Part shown: in pieces, positions 43,295-49,093 of the stretch
How the letters are laid out: every line of letters starts with the position of its first letter
How positions within the stretch are numbered: position 1 is the first letter of the stretch
NCBI RefSeq assembly: GCF_027111335.1
Contig: NZ_CP114288.1
Location: 4,464,001-4,528,000, forward strand
DNA: 64,000 nucleotides
Direction: 5' to 3'
DNA from: Flavobacterium aquiphilum
GTDB taxonomy: Bacteria; Bacteroidota; Bacteroidia; Flavobacteriales; Flavobacteriaceae
Translations under genes and position numbers: made by a program
The notes under the pieces: model-generated
Seen by the model: only the letters and a program-made list of their open reading frames with translations
Databases searched by the model: none
What the model was told of the DNA's origin: nothing

Positions 43295-43390
43295 GAAAAA
43301 AACCTGTAAAAAGAACTTGCCCAGAAAGAAGCACTCCTACAAAAAATGAAAATCCAGATGGAAACCCTGCGGGAATTGATTAAAAAATAA
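43295..43390 (+). pseudogene. 3' remnant of the HTH gene found intact at 47026
   Basis: Aligns codon by codon with the last 30 or so codons of the gene at 47026-47388: ELAQKEALLQKMKIQMETLRELIKK against ELAQKEAIIQKMEIQMETLREMIKK, in two short blocks sharing most bases. A TAA at 43307-43309 interrupts it in frame, and the HTH part is absent. Homology continues about 65 bp past the stop (to about 43458, matching 47389-47455). The gap 43152-43638 otherwise contains the promoter and repeat listed below. Confidence 0.8.
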
Positions 43391-43416
43391 CCTAAGTTAA
43401 ATTGAGTTAAATCATT

Positions 43417-43424
43417 TATATTTG
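43417..43424 (+). promoter_or_regulatory. -7 element in the duplicated flank (copy 1)
   Basis: TATATTTG in the conserved sequence TATATTTGGGAAAACAAAAC, which recurs at 47414. It points toward the SDR gene. Confidence 0.5.
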
Positions 43425-43508
43425 GGAAAACAAAACTGACGACTATTGAGCAAAGCTAGCCAAATAAAGATAACTAAACTCAACAAATGAGTAAAAAACT
43501 GAGTATAA

Positions 43509-43523
43509 TACAAGTTAGCTGTG
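43509..43523. repeat. left inverted repeat of the SDR-AraC unit
   Basis: TACAAGTTAGCTGTG, complementary (with a 2-nt gap) to CACAGCTAACACTTGTA at 45763-45779. Together they bound a 2.27-kb unit with three genes. Confidence 0.6.
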
Positions 43524-43603
43524 ATTTTACCGAGTGAAATCAAAAGAACTCGACAGACAAAAACATTGAACCTCACAGACAAATTTTTCATTTAACATCA
43601 ACT

Positions 43604-43611
43604 TACCTTTG
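43604..43611 (+). promoter_or_regulatory. -7 element of the SDR gene
   Basis: TACCTTTG. It lies over the TTG at 43609 that would start the longest frame, which supports the ATG at 43639. Confidence 0.55.
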
Positions 43612-43638
43612 CTGTATAAATCATTAAAAATCAATAAA

Positions 43639-44385
43639 ATGAAAAAAACAGTAATTATCACAGGAGGAACAACAGGTATTGGAAAAGCAACTGCTCTACA
43701 TTTTGCAAAAAATGGTTACAATGTAGTAATAACCAGCAGAAATGCTGACAAAGAAGAAGCTGTACTTGCTGACTTTAAACAAAATGGAGCAGATGTTACA
43801 TTTATACCTTTAGACGTAACAAACGAACAACAAGTAAAATCAGTTATTGAAACGACCGTTAAAAAGTTTGGCAAATTGGATTCTATTGTAAACAATTCGG
43901 GGATTTCATTAGGAAATGCCATATTGGCTGAAACAGAATCTAATGACTTAAAACAAATGCTTGAAACCAATGTAATGGGCGTTTATTATGGAATGAAATA
44001 TGCAATTATTGAAATGCTGAAAACAGGTGGCGGAACAATTGTAAATTTAGCATCTATAGCAGGATTAAATGGCTTGTATGCAACCGCACAATACAATGCA
44101 TCAAAACACGCAGTTGTAGGTTTAACAAAAGGTGCGTCTATTGATTATGCACAACAAGGAATTCGTATTAATGCAGTTGCACCAGGAGCAATCAAAACAG
44201 ATATTTTGAAAAACGCTATTGCTTCGGGAACATATGATGTTTCAAGCATTGAAGCCATTCATCCGATGAATAGATTAGGCGAAGTTGAAGATATTGCAAA
44301 AGCAATTTACTTTTTAGCTTCTGACGAAAATACATTTATGACAGGAACTATTTTAAATATTGATGGCGGTTATAATGCACAATAA
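43639..44385 (+). CDS. SDR family oxidoreductase
   Basis: A 248-residue classical SDR from MKKTVIITGGTTGIG (43639). TGGTTGIG is the cofactor loop, NNSG replaces NNAG, the catalytic Ser lies in VNLASIAG, the YNASK pair is present, and the C-terminal GTILNIDGGY is typical. No substrate can be named. It heads an SDR / membrane protein / AraC run bounded by inverted repeats; SDR-AraC pairs of this sort often handle small toxic carbonyls, which is only a suggestion here. Confidence 0.9.
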   Translation: MKKTVIITGGTTGIGKATALHFAKNGYNVVITSRNADKEEAVLADFKQNGADVTFIPLDVTNEQQVKSVIETTVKKFGKLDSIVNNSGISLGNAILAETESNDLKQMLETNVMGVYYGMKYAIIEMLKTGGGTIVNLASIAGLNGLYATAQYNASKHAVVGLTKGASIDYAQQGIRINAVAPGAIKTDILKNAIASGTYDVSSIEAIHPMNRLGEVEDIAKAIYFLASDENTFMTGTILNIDGGYNAQ

Positions 44386-44469
44386 TCATTTTAAAATAAA
44401 TAGAATATTTTTACATAGATTTATCTTTAGACAGATAAATCTATGTTCCTTAATTTAAAAAATGAAATT

Positions 44470-44961
44470 ATGATAAAAGACACTTTTGATTGGTACAACG
44501 GAGAAATTTTTGAAGGCAGATTTATATTAGGTTTTGGACTGATTTTAATTATTTCGTCCTTACTATTCTATTTTTTTGGAAGTGGACCATCGGCAAAAGC
44601 ATTATTAATTCCCTTACTTGTGATAGGACTATTTTTTGCTGTAACAGGTATTACGATGGTTAATTCTAACAGTAAAAAAATGGCAAAAGTGGAACAGATT
44701 TTCCAAGAAGACAATAAAGCATTTGTAAAAACCGAAATAAAACGAGTGGAGGGCTTTCAATATTTATACCCTTTATCAATTGGTGTTAGTGCGGTTTGTT
44801 TTATCGTCGCTTTGAGCTTATTATATTTTTCTAAAAGCGTAAATTTACAGGCAATTGCAATGGCTCTAATAATCTTTGGAGCAGGCTTTGCCTTTATAGA
44901 TTATTTTTCAAAAGAAAGAGCCACTATTTATTATGAAAAACTAACACATTTCAAACACTAA
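44470..44961 (+). CDS. small integral membrane protein, unknown function
   Basis: A 163-residue protein from MIKDTFDWYNG (44470); an upstream in-frame ATG at 44443 adds nine residues and is less likely. Four hydrophobic segments appear at about 16-36, 42-64, 97-117 and 123-142, with a charged amphipathic stretch between the second and third (KKMAKVEQIFQEDNKAFVKTEIKRVEGF). No family recognised. Its stop is immediately followed by the AraC ATG (no gap), so the two are translationally coupled. Confidence 0.75.
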   Translation: MIKDTFDWYNGEIFEGRFILGFGLILIISSLLFYFFGSGPSAKALLIPLLVIGLFFAVTGITMVNSNSKKMAKVEQIFQEDNKAFVKTEIKRVEGFQYLYPLSIGVSAVCFIVALSLLYFSKSVNLQAIAMALIIFGAGFAFIDYFSKERATIYYEKLTHFKH

Positions 44962-45771
44962 ATGGTACAAGACAGAACGAAAATAAATATTCTTTTCTCT
45001 TGCTCAGGCGAACCAAAAAAGGATTTTGAGCCCTTTGTTCAAGACTTTGCTTTGTCATTTATCTTAACAGGAAAAATGACAATTAACAACGGAACAGAAA
45101 CTACCGAATACAATGCTGGCGAGATTGGTTTTATATCAAAAAATCAATTGGTAAAAACGCAAAAACTGCCCCAAGACAATAAACCATTTATGGGAATTAG
45201 TGTTTTTTTACCTAAAGAAACACTTTATAATTTCTCTAAAGAACATAACATTTTACCAAAAGGACAGTATACAGGCAAACCAAATTTTATATTTCCTCAC
45301 GACCCATTTTTAAAAGGTTTTTTTGACTCTATTGTCCCTTATTTTGAAAATCCAGATGCGTTAACCGAAAATTTGGCGACAATAAAAACCAACGAAATCA
45401 TAGAGCTTTTGATTAAAAAAACACAAATGCAAAATCTTCTATTCAATTTTCAAGATGATTTTAAAATTGATTTAGAAGCTTATATGAATAGAAATTTTAC
45501 GCACAATATTCCGTTAGAACAATTTGCAAAACTAACAGGAAGAAGTATTTCAACATTCAAAAGAGATTTTCAGGAAATATTTAAAGAAACACCAAGTAAG
45601 TGGCTTATCAAAAAGCGACTTGACCTGGCACATTTTTTAATTACTAAACAAAACAAAAAACCAGTAGAAGTTTACTATGACGTTGGCTTTATAAGTTTCG
45701 CTCATTTTTCTCGGACATTTAAAACAGAATTTAAAATAAACCCATCGGAAATAGAAAAAAACCACAGCTAA
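44962..45771 (+). CDS. AraC-family transcriptional regulator
   Basis: A 269-residue regulator. The N-terminal half (about 10-120) is a cupin-like sensor (GKMTINNGTETTEYNAGEIGFISKNQLVKT). The C-terminal 100 residues form the double HTH with ISTFKRDFQEIFKETPSKWLIKKRLDLA and VYYDVGFISFAHFSRTFKTEFKINPSEI. It probably controls the SDR and membrane genes immediately upstream. Its last codons and stop lie in the right inverted repeat (CACAGCTAACAC), so the unit boundary runs through the gene end. Confidence 0.92.
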   Translation: MVQDRTKINILFSCSGEPKKDFEPFVQDFALSFILTGKMTINNGTETTEYNAGEIGFISKNQLVKTQKLPQDNKPFMGISVFLPKETLYNFSKEHNILPKGQYTGKPNFIFPHDPFLKGFFDSIVPYFENPDALTENLATIKTNEIIELLIKKTQMQNLLFNFQDDFKIDLEAYMNRNFTHNIPLEQFAKLTGRSISTFKRDFQEIFKETPSKWLIKKRLDLAHFLITKQNKKPVEVYYDVGFISFAHFSRTFKTEFKINPSEIEKNHS

Positions 45772-45779
45772 CACTTGTA
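45763..45779. repeat. right inverted repeat of the SDR-AraC unit
   Basis: CACAGCTAACACTTGTA, partner of 43509-43523. It contains the AraC stop codon. Confidence 0.6.
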
Positions 45780-45832
45780 ACTGTTGCACAACTTCTAAAA
45801 AAGAAACGAAGTTTAAAAAAGCTGTAAAAAAC

Positions 45833-45868
45833 AACCTCGTTTTATGTATTTAGAGCGAGGTTTATTTT
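45833..45868 (+). terminator. hairpin, probable terminator of the SDR-AraC unit
   Basis: AACCTCG (45833-45839) pairs with CGAGGTT (45856-45862), followed by TTATTTTTG. Confidence 0.6.
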
Positions 45869-46122
45869 TGCTTCAAAATTGCTCTCTGGTGCTTGTCTGC
45901 GACGAGTACCTATTTAAATTAAAAAACAAATCGTAGCGTTTGCAACGCGGTTAATTAAAAACAGGAGTACCTTTAAACAAGTATACTCACTCCTCTGTCA
46001 AGACTACAACAGTATTCCATAAAATCTTTCTACTTACTCACATACATCACTTTTTACTTACACATTTAACAAAATACATGAAAATTGACAGAAAAAAACT
46101 ATTTAAAAAAGTAAGAATAGTT
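45869..46122. other. gene-free stretch with small palindromes
   Basis: No credible ORF. Contains GCGTT-TGC-AACGC and an AGGAGT...ACTCCT pair a little downstream, resembling REP-type remnants. No transposase nearby. Confidence 0.4.
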
Positions 46123-46130
46123 TATATTTG
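46123..46130 (+). promoter_or_regulatory. -7 element of the gene at 46173
   Basis: TATATTTG, 42 bp before the ATG. Confidence 0.5.
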
Positions 46131-46172
46131 GTTTGTAAACTATTATTACAATAACCATTAAACAACTATTTT

Positions 46173-46670
46173 ATGTCAAATTTGCTTAACAATCGCGTAA
46201 ACGCCACTGCTACGGCAGCACAGGTAACGGCAGTCAAAGCCGCTTTCCAAACTATTCTAACCAACCTTCCGTTTCTCGTAGGTTTAACCGCCGATGAGAG
46301 AAAATCATTAATCGCTGTTGATGTCGCCAACAAGGCGTTTACCGAAGACGCCATTAATGCGGCAGTAAACAACCCAACACTTGTTCCGTCTTATCTTTCG
46401 GTGGCAAATATGCAAAATGATTTAACGCTATTTACACAACTGGATGAAATCTCGGGCTTGGCAAACCAGCTTTGTGAGCGTATTGAAGACACCAAAATGC
46501 TGGCAGGCAGTGAGGCCTACATTGTAGCACTGTCACTCTACAAATCCTTTGGGGCGGCAGCCGATGCCGGAGTTCAGGGAGCAGACAGCATCGTCGATCA
46601 ACTCAAAAAACGTTTTGCCACTAGCGGCGGAAATGCCGTTACGGTACCGCCCGTACTACCTGCGGTGTAG
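46173..46670 (+). CDS. uncharacterised alpha-helical protein
   Basis: A 165-residue soluble protein with no signal peptide or membrane segment. It is predicted mostly helical, with Ala/Asn-rich opening (NNRVNATATAAQVTAVKAAFQTIL), a motif TNLPFLVGLTADERKSLI, a central LANQLCERIEDTKMLAGSEAYIVALSLYKSF and a Pro/Val tail. Similar proteins appear to be scattered in Bacteroidota, but I know no function. Visibly richer in G+C than its neighbours, which hints at transfer. It is closed off by its own terminator and lies next to the 22-bp repeat array and HTH gene. Confidence 0.75.
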   Translation: MSNLLNNRVNATATAAQVTAVKAAFQTILTNLPFLVGLTADERKSLIAVDVANKAFTEDAINAAVNNPTLVPSYLSVANMQNDLTLFTQLDEISGLANQLCERIEDTKMLAGSEAYIVALSLYKSFGAAADAGVQGADSIVDQLKKRFATSGGNAVTVPPVLPAV

Positions 46671-46697
46671 CAAAACAATTTGCTTAAAAATAACCGC

Positions 46698-46733
46698 AAT
46701 CGCCTCTTTTGAAATAAAAGAGGCGATTTTTTT
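46698..46733 (+). terminator. terminator of the gene at 46173
   Basis: AATCGCCTCTTTT (46698-46710) pairs with AAAAGAGGCGATT (46716-46728), followed by Ts. Confidence 0.88.
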
Positions 46734-46767
46734 GCCGTTCTTTTTTGTTATCCAAAAGCAATTGTAT

Positions 46768-46965
46768 GTAGTTCGAACCAACAACATAGGTAGTTTAAAC
46801 CTGCTTTATTGGTTCGACGAACCAATAGAACAACTAGTTTGTACCAATACTATATGGTATTAGAACCAATAAAGTATATAGTTTAAACCAATACTATATG
46901 TAGTTCGAACCAATAGTATATGTAGTTTGAACCAATAAACAATGTAGTTCCAACCAACACTATTA
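46768..46965. repeat. array of nine degenerate ~22-bp units (iteron/operator-like)
   Basis: Units begin near 46768, 46790, 46811, 46834, 46857, 46878, 46900, 46922 and 46944, with spacings of 21-23 bp. The consensus is GTAGTTYGAACCAAT followed by an AT-rich half; the core GTTCGAAC is palindromic. The period is about two helical turns, so bound proteins would line up on one DNA face. The array ends about 60 bp before the HTH gene at 47026, and TACTTTTT (one base off the -7 consensus) lies at 46977. The stretch encodes nothing: 22 bp does not preserve frame. Confidence 0.8.
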
Positions 46966-47025
46966 GTGTTTAGCACTACTTTTTTAGAAAAACAGTAGGT
47001 ATTCCTAACCTTAAAAACACAAAAA

Positions 47026-47388
47026 ATGATATCGACCAGCAACAAATACAAGAATGGAAAAGGGGAACATTACCCAGCGATTGGCAATTTTATCCATTAT
47101 TACATTATCCAGAATAAAATCAAGAAAGCCGATGTTGCCAGAGCACTAGGCATACTCCCAACGGGATTGAACGAATATTTCAAGAAAGAGTCCTTGCAGT
47201 TTGCCATTATATGGAAACTCAGTATGGCAATGAACTACAATTTTATTGCGCACTTGGGCGAATACCTACCCTATCGTTTTGAAACTATTCGCGAAAAAAC
47301 CCTGAAAGAAGAACTTGCCCAGAAAGAGGCGATCATACAAAAAATGGAAATCCAGATGGAAACCCTGCGAGAAATGATTAAAAAATAA
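47026..47388 (+). CDS. small HTH DNA-binding protein with C-terminal coiled coil
   Basis: A 120-residue protein. Residues about 17-75 look like a Cro/CI-type HTH (IGNFIHYYIIQNKIKKADVARALGILPTGLNEYFKKESLQFAIIWKLSMAMNYNF). From about 92 to 120 there is a charged coiled coil (LKEELAQKEAIIQKMEIQMETLREMIKK). It lies directly downstream of the nine-unit repeat array, its likely binding site. Its 3' end and downstream flank are duplicated at 43295-43458. No established family name or role is known to me. Confidence 0.8.
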   Translation: MISTSNKYKNGKGEHYPAIGNFIHYYIIQNKIKKADVARALGILPTGLNEYFKKESLQFAIIWKLSMAMNYNFIAHLGEYLPYRFETIREKTLKEELAQKEAIIQKMEIQMETLREMIKK

Positions 47389-47413
47389 CCTAAGTTGAAT
47401 GAGACAAATTAAT

Positions 47414-47421
47414 TATATTTG
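47414..47421 (+). promoter_or_regulatory. -7 element in the duplicated flank (copy 2)
   Basis: TATATTTG in the same conserved context as 43417, pointing to the TIR-TPR gene (leader about 105 nt). Confidence 0.5.
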
Positions 47422-47446
47422 GGAAAACAAAACTGACGTCTTTTAC

Positions 47447-47510
47447 ACAAAGCTATCCATATTGGGGTGGATGTATGTGAGGAAGTCACACATATAAACA
47501 AGTTATATGC
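47447..47510. repeat. left degenerate direct repeat flanking the TIR-TPR gene
   Basis: ACAAAGCT then ATCCATATTGGGGTGGAT (47455-47472), a hairpin TATGTGA...TCACACATA (47474-47494) and GTTATATGCGAGC. The same order of blocks recurs at 49043-49093. Confidence 0.5.
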
Positions 47511-47531
47511 GAGCTTAAGAAACTATAAACT

Positions 47532-48968
47532 ATGAAACCAAAGATTTTTATCGGATCATCTGTCGCCGGTTTGGGCGTTGCTTATTCGATTCAACAAAAT
47601 TTAACTCATGATGCCGATGTCACTGTCTGGGATCAAGGAGTGTTTGAACTTTCCAAAACAACAATTGAGTCATTACTCGAAATCTTGAATAAAAGTGACT
47701 TTGGAATTTTCGTATTTAATGAAGATGATATTGCCACAATTAAACAAGAAACAAAAAGTGTTGTTCGCGATAATGTTCTTTTCGAATTTGGTCTTTTCAT
47801 TGGAAAACTAACTCGCCAACGTGTTTTTTTCGTTATTCCGGCAAACTCGGAATTACACCTACCAACAGATCTACTTGGTGTCACTCCAGGCACATATGAT
47901 GCTAGACGCGAAGACAATAGCCTCCAAGCTGCAACTGGGCCGGTTTGTCATCAAATCCGAACACAAGTTCAAAAAGAAGGATTATTAAATACAAGCACTG
48001 AGACAGCTCAGGAGCCGGAAAAAACAGAAGGAACGAATAACTATGAAGATGATGTATGGTATTCCATTTTTGCTAAAGGTGACTATGAAAAAGCAATAAA
48101 AATATTAGAAAAACAACTTGCCACTGAAATAGACGAAGATGAAGTCATTCAAAAGAAAATATGGATTTCTTACTGCAAATTTAAATCTGATTCCATAGAC
48201 GGTAAAAAAGCGTTGGAGGAATTACTTGTAGAATTTCCCGAGAAATTGGTTGTTAGTCATGGTATCGCAAAATTCTATCTTTGGGACGATTACTACGACC
48301 ATGCAATTTCCATATTGGAGGCCGCAATTGTAAAATTTGGAGAAGATGAGTCACTTATTTTGACACTTGCCGATTGTTACAAAAAGACAGAAGGCGAAGA
48401 CAAAGTTATTGAATACCTATCTACAAAGAAACCTAGCGACAGTATCGATATAACACTTAATATTCTTTCAATATTGAGAGATAAAAAATCTTGGGAACAA
48501 GCTCGAAAAGTTGTGCATGCGTGTTATCAAAAACATCCAAATAATGAAAAAATAAAGTATGAGTACGCTAGAATTGCTCTGGATCTCAATCTTAATGATA
48601 TTGCGCTATTTTTCTTGAAGCCATTAACCCAAAGCTATGACAATGTAGAGTATTGGGGTTATTTAAGTAATTGCTATGTTCAATTAAATCTTTATGACTT
48701 GGGAATGATTGCTTGTAAAAGAGCTAATGAAATTGCTGGAGAACAACAAAGCTGGATTATTCTTAACATTGGAAATATACTTAAAAATAAAGGGTTCTAT
48801 ACAGAATCTATTGCGTATTTTGAAAAGGGACTGGGTATAGACAAATATTCGGAATACGGTCATGAAAGATTGTCGACAGCTATAAAATTAAAAGATGAAG
48901 AACAAGAAAAATCGTCGAAACTTATAATTGAAGGCAGGAAAGCGCTTAGAGATTTCGTTATCGAATGA
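47532..48968 (+). CDS. TIR-like (CAP12/PycTIR type)-TPR repeat protein, candidate defence effector
   Basis: A 478-residue soluble protein. Residues 1 to about 140 match the TIR-like nucleotide-binding domain of CAP12/PycTIR proteins: KIFIGSSVAGLGVAYSIQQNL at the start, DFGIFVFNEDD in the middle, and RDNVLFEFGLFIGKL with the presumed catalytic Glu85. Such domains in CBASS and Pycsar effectors cleave NAD+. From about 165 to 470 the chain is helical with TPR-like pairs (DYEKAIKILEKQLATEI, YYDHAISILEAAIVKF, FYTESIAYFEKGLGIDK), a likely sensor or scaffold. No cyclase gene is adjacent. Cassette-like repeats flank the gene. Confidence 0.8.
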   Translation: MKPKIFIGSSVAGLGVAYSIQQNLTHDADVTVWDQGVFELSKTTIESLLEILNKSDFGIFVFNEDDIATIKQETKSVVRDNVLFEFGLFIGKLTRQRVFFVIPANSELHLPTDLLGVTPGTYDARREDNSLQAATGPVCHQIRTQVQKEGLLNTSTETAQEPEKTEGTNNYEDDVWYSIFAKGDYEKAIKILEKQLATEIDEDEVIQKKIWISYCKFKSDSIDGKKALEELLVEFPEKLVVSHGIAKFYLWDDYYDHAISILEAAIVKFGEDESLILTLADCYKKTEGEDKVIEYLSTKKPSDSIDITLNILSILRDKKSWEQARKVVHACYQKHPNNEKIKYEYARIALDLNLNDIALFFLKPLTQSYDNVEYWGYLSNCYVQLNLYDLGMIACKRANEIAGEQQSWIILNIGNILKNKGFYTESIAYFEKGLGIDKYSEYGHERLSTAIKLKDEEQEKSSKLIIEGRKALRDFVIE

Positions 48969-49042
48969 TAAACCCGAACACCCATGACATGTCTCGGCAA
49001 CGATAGCGCAGAATTGCATTCTGTGCCCGCAAAGTATTGCAA

Positions 49043-49093
49043 ACAAAGCATAAAAATCAGACCATCCATATTGTGTGGATTTGCAATATATGC
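49043..49093. repeat. right degenerate direct repeat flanking the TIR-TPR gene
   Basis: ACAAAGCA, then ATCCATATTGTGTGGAT (49064-49080) and ATATATGC, matching 47447-47510 in the same orientation. A hairpin GCGCAGAA/TTCTGTGC lies just before it (about 49009-49025). Confidence 0.5.

Follow-up and report, generated by a model that had tools for sequence, protein, structure and literature searches.

The window analysed here is a 64 kb stretch of the Flavobacterium aquiphilum genome (GCF_027111335.1, NZ_CP114288.1 4,464,001-4,528,000, forward strand). Between hlyIII and acnB it carries two copies of the 3' end of a helix-turn-helix (HTH) protein gene with its flank (Table 1). They lead to unrelated cargo, as the initial annotation had recognised. 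The first copy is followed by genes for a short-chain dehydrogenase/reductase (SDR), a membrane protein and an AraC-type regulator, the second by a CAP12-type TIR-TPR gene. From sequence comparison, the conserved flank very probably serves an integron-like system as an attI-like site for recombination. We infer a reaction in which a tyrosine recombinase, encoded elsewhere in the chromosome and acting in trans, would connect a cassette end (GTT...AAC, with an attC-like palindrome closing it) to the attI GTT. The incoming cassette would land right downstream of a promoter, putatively active, inside attI. Two such platforms lie in the window: the first is truncated and bears cassette 1, the second is complete and bears the TIR-TPR cassette.

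The repeat consists of two parts. Positions 43295-43402 match 47293-47400 over 108 nt with 90% identity, and 43403-43465 match 47400-47462 over 63 nt with 83% identity. In total 171 nt recur, the HTH 3' end and flank at 47293-47462 being repeated at 43295-43465. The duplication reported in the initial annotation is thus confirmed at its place (~87%, E 1.4e-52), but its right end at 43458 is not, since the site continues to the GTT at 43514 and 47502. As protein the first copy is degraded, with 69% to HTH residues 86-120 and one stop. In a blastn search of the F. aquiphilum genome (5.05 Mb) with a 178 nt query, the window copies are found at E 1.1e-88 and 1.4e-52 (87%), and the other 27 of 29 matches all have E >= 0.06. 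Taken by itself, this genome with its two flank copies would have pointed to a local duplication. The flank is also found in other genomes, where the annotation had advised to look for it, with differing genes downstream.

Table 1. Features at the locus, in window coordinates.
Feature	Coordinates	Strand	Basis
Truncated first platform: remnant of the HTH 3' end	43295..43396	+	Repeat match
attI-like site 1, -7 box TATATTTG at 43417	43402..43513	+	R2 match 43402-43520, 33.6 bits; E 0.0031 (window search), 0.24 (whole genome search)
GTT junction, start of cassette 1	43514..43516	+	Sequence inspection
Gene cassette 1	43515..45772	+	Ends complementary; full-length in other genomes
SDR gene (cassette 1)	43639..44385	+	Pfam
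Membrane protein gene (cassette 1)	44443..44961	+	Pfam
AraC-type regulator gene (cassette 1)	44962..45771	+	Pfam
R''-like end of cassette 1, overlapping stop codon of AraC-type gene	45758..45772	+	Complementarity
Candidate short attC remnant, inverted AACTTC/GAAGTT	45773..45813	+	By eye; not found by R1, whose best window match lies elsewhere
Dispersed repeat	45883..45987	.	93% to L096 7511-7615
Complete second platform (HTH gene and attI-like site, preceded by 165-aa gene and 22-bp array)	45989..47501	+	Homology with L022 (from 3961 on); conservation of the block
165-aa protein gene, partner of HTH gene	46173..46670	+	464 homologues
22-bp repeat array before HTH gene	46766..46963	.	Repeat search
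120-aa HTH protein gene	47026..47388	+	HTH_3 E 0.0087 (below cut-off); 119 homologues
attI-like site 2, -7 box TATATTTG at 47414	47399..47501	+	R2 match 47399-47508, 92.5 bits, E 1.4e-13 (one of the 20 R2 training sequences)
Cassette 2: GTT 47502, TIR-TPR gene 47532-48968	47502..48968	+	Pfam, PADLOC

The attI-like site and the borders of cassette 1

Alignment of the HTH 3' flanks shows a structured stretch that closes in GTT, with divergent sequence beyond. By inspection, this stretch and its GTT are present at 16 of 17 loci with an HTH identity of at least ~62% (the window and the comparison loci L022 and L085-L099; L085 is unclear and L086 is shortened). We gathered 30 attI-like sites and aligned 20 of them, five being integrase flanks, and model R2 was built on these 20. 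Among six untrained HTH flanks, R2 finds those of L022, L086, L089 and L097 at E <= 0.05 and misses those of L085 and L102. The arms of the attI hairpin covary, with 87.7% of cells paired vs 79.0% in shuffles and 15-62% when slid. An alternative, mutually exclusive pairing, which uses the same arm, has about as much support (84.1%; both structures were named by us), and RNAalifold finds only 8 pairs in the attI alignment. An exact TAnnTTTG box precedes the hairpin arms in 16/30 sites and is absent in 14/30. A promoter inside the attI-like site would point at the cassette.

The two exclusive pairings are attenuator-like. Together with the box they would suit a leader RNA that is structured, has a promoter and controls the cargo, in the manner of an attenuator or a riboswitch; the cargo would be swapped by ordinary homologous recombination between modules. 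However, no Rfam family matches the flank, and the borders of cassette 1 are difficult to reconcile with such a leader. The ends of this cassette (GTT 43514, AAC 45772) are complementary at 14/14 positions, with an additional mismatch at position 11. No other 15-mer in the 64 kb reaches 12/14 or more on either strand, the start's own reverse strand aside. The cassette is found full-length in the F. aquiphilum genome and in six others of 398 Flavobacterium genomes at 75-89% identity, and partially in three more. In G191, G202 and G117 the cassette has an attC-like site on its left and the homology begins at the identical GTT; in G191 the cassette is part of the array that belongs to the integrase itself, with attC-like sites around it. 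In G415, G263 and G074 the homology extends by 6-68 nt into the left neighbour, here an attI-like site. At the right edge the homology stops within 2 nt of AAC in 6/6 genomes, and attC-like matches follow. Some of these neighbouring matches are weak, namely the R2 match in G263 (E 0.027) and the matches of the attC model R1 in G263 and G074 (only 34 bits). For this one cassette, the same unit is found with exact ends in different places. Both the sharp stop at AAC and the identical start behind attC-like sites argue against the RNA leader, which we regard as very unlikely.

attC-like arrays and the integrase

Repeats of ~135 nt lie between the cargo genes, and nhmmer gives 35 matches to them, whole or partial, in the loci examined. 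Sixteen of 20 whole attC-like sites were aligned. The alignment folds as one long hairpin with 30 pairs, 6 of which have changes on both sides. Arrays of such sites stand behind the integrase, e.g. 13 sites in L193 and 11 in L194, and the integrase gene and its cassettes share one reading direction. The cassette ends were tested by comparing the bases after GTT with the reverse complement of the bases before AAC at 7 positions per cassette. Complementarity is found at 147/175 positions in 25 cassettes (swapped pairs 2.7/7) and at 289/308 in 44 cassettes of integrase arrays (swapped pairs 2.9/7), two sets that share few loci and omit intervals lacking two recognised ends, the second also those above 2.5 kb; 0/10000 permutations reach either value. 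The complementary ends extend for ~15 nt. Position 11 is a fixed mismatch, seen in 43/44 cassettes, and the start letter there is A in 44/44. The R box of integrons has the consensus GTTRRRY. A purine follows GTT in 44/44 cassette starts, GTT itself being preset in the script, and the other positions vary.

Inverted ends on each unit would also be expected if the cargo units were small transposons, each bounded by terminal inverted repeats (GTTN7...N7AAC). Unlike those of a transposon family, however, the ends match within a unit and differ between units. The units also follow fixed structured sites, and neither window cassette encodes a transposase. Such transposons are therefore extremely improbable.

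The integrase of the integron-like system is an IntI-like tyrosine recombinase of ~347 residues. A search of 14 HTH-bearing genomes for the integron-integrase family gives matches of at least 90 bits, reaching profile position 314 or 315 of 315, in 10/14. The site known from the HTH gene also follows the integrase stop codon, clearly in L125-L129 and more loosely in L130, L131, L133 and L134. In 9/10 untrained integrase loci (L187-L196) the R2 match begins at the stop codon. The same is seen for both Chryseobacterium plasmid integrases analysed (2/2; E 9.5e-8 and 1.2e-5). Since the integrase gene is followed by the same site as the HTH gene, we abandoned a multi-copy mobile HTH element as the leading explanation. 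The initial annotation had proposed an acquisition site with an outward promoter, and the flank looks like one at the sequence level; its further idea, of an HTH gene that supplies a portable promoter and is copied or displaced as cargo enters, does not explain the mobility. What the loci share is the attI-like site, which also follows the integrase-like gene and occurs elsewhere without either gene.

The integrase family is present in 147/299 Flavobacterium and 127/295 Bacteroidia genomes at E <= 1e-60, a limit that may let in more distant subfamilies. attC-like candidates (E <= 1e-4, 110 candidates scored per genome) were counted in 30 hand-picked genomes. The 15 genomes with integrase, some of which also gave training sites, have 49, 47, 102, 41, 75, 39, 23, 8, 7, 19, 43, 4, 3, 9 and 0. 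The 15 without an integrase match at E 1e-60 have 0, 17, 1, 0, 16, 0, 2, 7, 7, 0, 0, 0, 5, 1 and 0. The medians are 23 vs 1 (Mann-Whitney p 0.0002).

A repeated TATACGCCTT-like motif, possibly an operator, is found right before the integrase start codon in L125-L129. On plasmid pHH1107 (L218, 3986-6007), and also in L219, the resistance gene tet(X3) is immediately preceded, on the same strand, by a shortened integrase relative (53.5% over query residues 133-347). Of the plasmid records with a match, 24/29 are from Acinetobacter. Candidate cassette ends at tet(X3) are complementary at 4/7 positions, by eye only; at this locus the pattern search gives no significant match for cassette ends and R2 finds no site.

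HTH platforms, their cargo and dispersed sites

The HTH protein is present in 38/398 Flavobacterium genomes (E <= 1e-6) and its 165-aa partner in 45/398. The partner has no Pfam or NCBIfam match above cut-off, and its AlphaFold model consists of helices only, at modest confidence (pLDDT 78.5, pTM 0.52). Its gene has a TAnnTTTG-like box of its own (46080-46172 in the window), which is kept in 12 aligned loci. A tandem array of 20-22 bp units (score >= 50) is found upstream of HTH genes in 32/42 regions vs 1/210 mononucleotide-shuffled ones, and the HTH protein may read its own array. In the window's relatives this array is of the AACCAATA type. L094-L097, where the HTH N-terminus is diverged, have a CCCCTA-rich stretch upstream, and no 20-22 bp array was detected there.

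At the same chromosomal site, L022 (Flavobacterium sp. HJJ) has one complete platform, and the flank at L022 5268-5490 resembles the window's degraded copy with 89.7% over 223 nt. In the window the HTH 3' end and attI-like site 1 are followed by cassette 1 and then by the complete platform, which matches L022 from just past the hlyIII flank. This order would fit a tandem duplication of the platform and a subsequent loss of the first 165-aa gene, the array and the 5' part of the HTH gene. The distance between hlyIII and acnB is ~7.8 kb in the window vs ~430 bp in G079. A HlyIII match is found in three other genomes of 14 searched, and this neighbourhood, within 1.5 kb, only in G079 among the matches listed (20 listed for G283). 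The difference in distance, together with the occurrence of the platform at several places in the chromosome, its left edge being similar, would agree with the HTH module itself being the mobile unit that carries the cargo behind it. However, cassettes exist without the HTH module, both in integrase arrays and at sites in the F. aquiphilum genome. We consider a mobile HTH module unlikely as the general explanation; it may account for the spread of some attI-like sites. A blastn search of 72,556 plasmid records with the platform gives no match.

The TIR-TPR protein of cassette 2 matches PF10137 (E 1e-32), followed by TPR repeats, and is assigned by PADLOC to TIR effector/PycTIR. It shares its TIR domain with the Cap12 effectors of CBASS and Pycsar. 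It differs from them by its TPR repeats, and no cyclase gene is seen beside it as a partner; the NCBIfam Cap12 score of 114.7 is also below the cut-off of 450. Behind the platform elsewhere, a protein kinase is found in Flavobacterium sp. HJJ and a Pycsar-like cyclase with a membrane effector in F. aquariorum, and other cargo differs again. PADLOC defence models match 7/18 cargo proteins chosen by us (5/8 and 2/10) and none of the three cassette 1 proteins. REP-like (repetitive extragenic palindromic) sequences (GATAGCGC...) lie at the position expected for an attC-like end in the window (48968-49080), L095 (8410) and L097 (8470).

The F. aquiphilum genome contains at least 23 R2 sites at E <= 1, both window sites included and 21 of them at E <= 0.0121 (150 of 6312 candidates scored), and at least 17 R1 sites (150 of 3555 candidates scored). 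Of 11 loci with attC that lie apart from the integrase (L171-L181), eight have an R2 match at E <= 0.05. L176, L178 and L181 clearly show a matching cassette start behind an attI-like stretch with neither HTH nor integrase gene; in L171 it is weaker, and in the other seven it was not found. The integrase seems to serve dispersed attI-like sites, some of them behind HTH modules. In G000:C1:3153580-3178117 (L209, L210), nine attI-like sites lie on one strand within 25 kb, several right before single genes, and two attC-like matches only are found.

Relation to known integrons

A comparison with sedentary chromosomal integrons shows a tyrosine recombinase beside attI, cassettes in the same orientation, the GTT junction, palindromic attC sites with complementary R''/R' ends and an outward promoter-like box. 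The attI-like site is found beside the integrase (except in L132 and L187), attC palindromes close the array cassettes and the R''/R' ends are cassette-specific; within the window this last trait is seen in cassette 1 and not in cassette 2. Differences are also observed. The IntI-specific domain is absent from the Flavobacterium integrase, which carries ~75 additional residues in its N-terminal region, integrase and cassettes are on one strand, the attI-like sites are many and dispersed, and the complementary ends are ~15 nt long with their fixed mismatch at position 11. The best NCBIfam match of three integrases is NF040815 (XerA/XerC-type; 220.5, 203.1 and 212.7 bits vs a cut-off of 220), but unlike such recombinases they are linked to attI/attC-like cassette arrays. 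The window cassettes have no adjacent integrase and in this resemble CALIN, clusters of attC sites lacking an integron integrase; in contrast to CALIN, they start at an attI-like site that includes a promoter-like box.

Several observations weigh against an integron-like system. The IntI-specific insert is missing: the alignment to 2a3v skips chain residues 182-242, a stretch to which just 19 query residues correspond. TIGR02249 (integron integrase) scores 211.7, 201.2 and 188.9 bits for the three integrases, all under its cut-off of 265. With the insert lacking and this score too low, membership in IntI was rejected. Four of the 14 HTH-bearing genomes (G031, G324, G353 and G385) have no 90-bit integrase-like match of the kind described. 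Behind the L132 integrase no site can be seen, and R2 finds none behind that of L187 or behind the broken integrase of F. aquiphilum itself (L170). This latter gene (~2229608-2230632) is split into frames of 185 and 135 residues and the genome has no further copy at E 1e-60, so its cassettes may be frozen. Among the count genomes, 8/15 without an integrase match have attC-like candidates (up to 17), and one of the 15 with integrase has none. In the window R1 finds no attC (best match E 0.71). The attC of cassette 1 is divergent at best; for cassette 2 no matching complementary end was found and no attC-type end is recognisable, this cassette having lost it. Only 4/25 distant HTH relatives (L100, L101, L102 and L105) have the flank, against the 16/17 closer loci, so its tie to the HTH gene is restricted to one clade. 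Finally, the spread of the attI-like sites is left unexplained by an integron-like system.

In the excerpts available of the published accounts, the IntI-specific domain is the defining trait of integron integrases (PMC9668308), and integron integrase genes were selected by it, with Bacteroidetes/Chlorobi among the listed groups (PMC2426708). Excerpts of a survey describe the Bacteroidetes as almost lacking complete integrons: only integrase-only elements were reported at first, and a single complete one, in Salinibacter ruber, came later (PMC9024848). A passage of another names Bacteroidota among the phyla with integrons (PMC8618304). Among the titles listed, our literature search of open-licence papers shows no publication on Flavobacterium integrons.

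We consider it reasonably likely that the Bacteroidia hold a widespread, unrecognised class of integrons, in which an integrase without the IntI domain serves many dispersed attI-like sites in trans. Some of these sites would be fixed behind modules of HTH gene and repeat array, which may control when captured cassettes, defence-like genes included, are expressed. If active, such a system would be a large reservoir of mobile genes, with at least 102 attC-like candidates in one genome (110 scored), that is missed by methods relying on the IntI domain. The need for this domain in cassette capture would become testable, and cassettes, some of them resembling anti-virus defences, would be placed in a bacterial group in which such systems have hardly been recorded.

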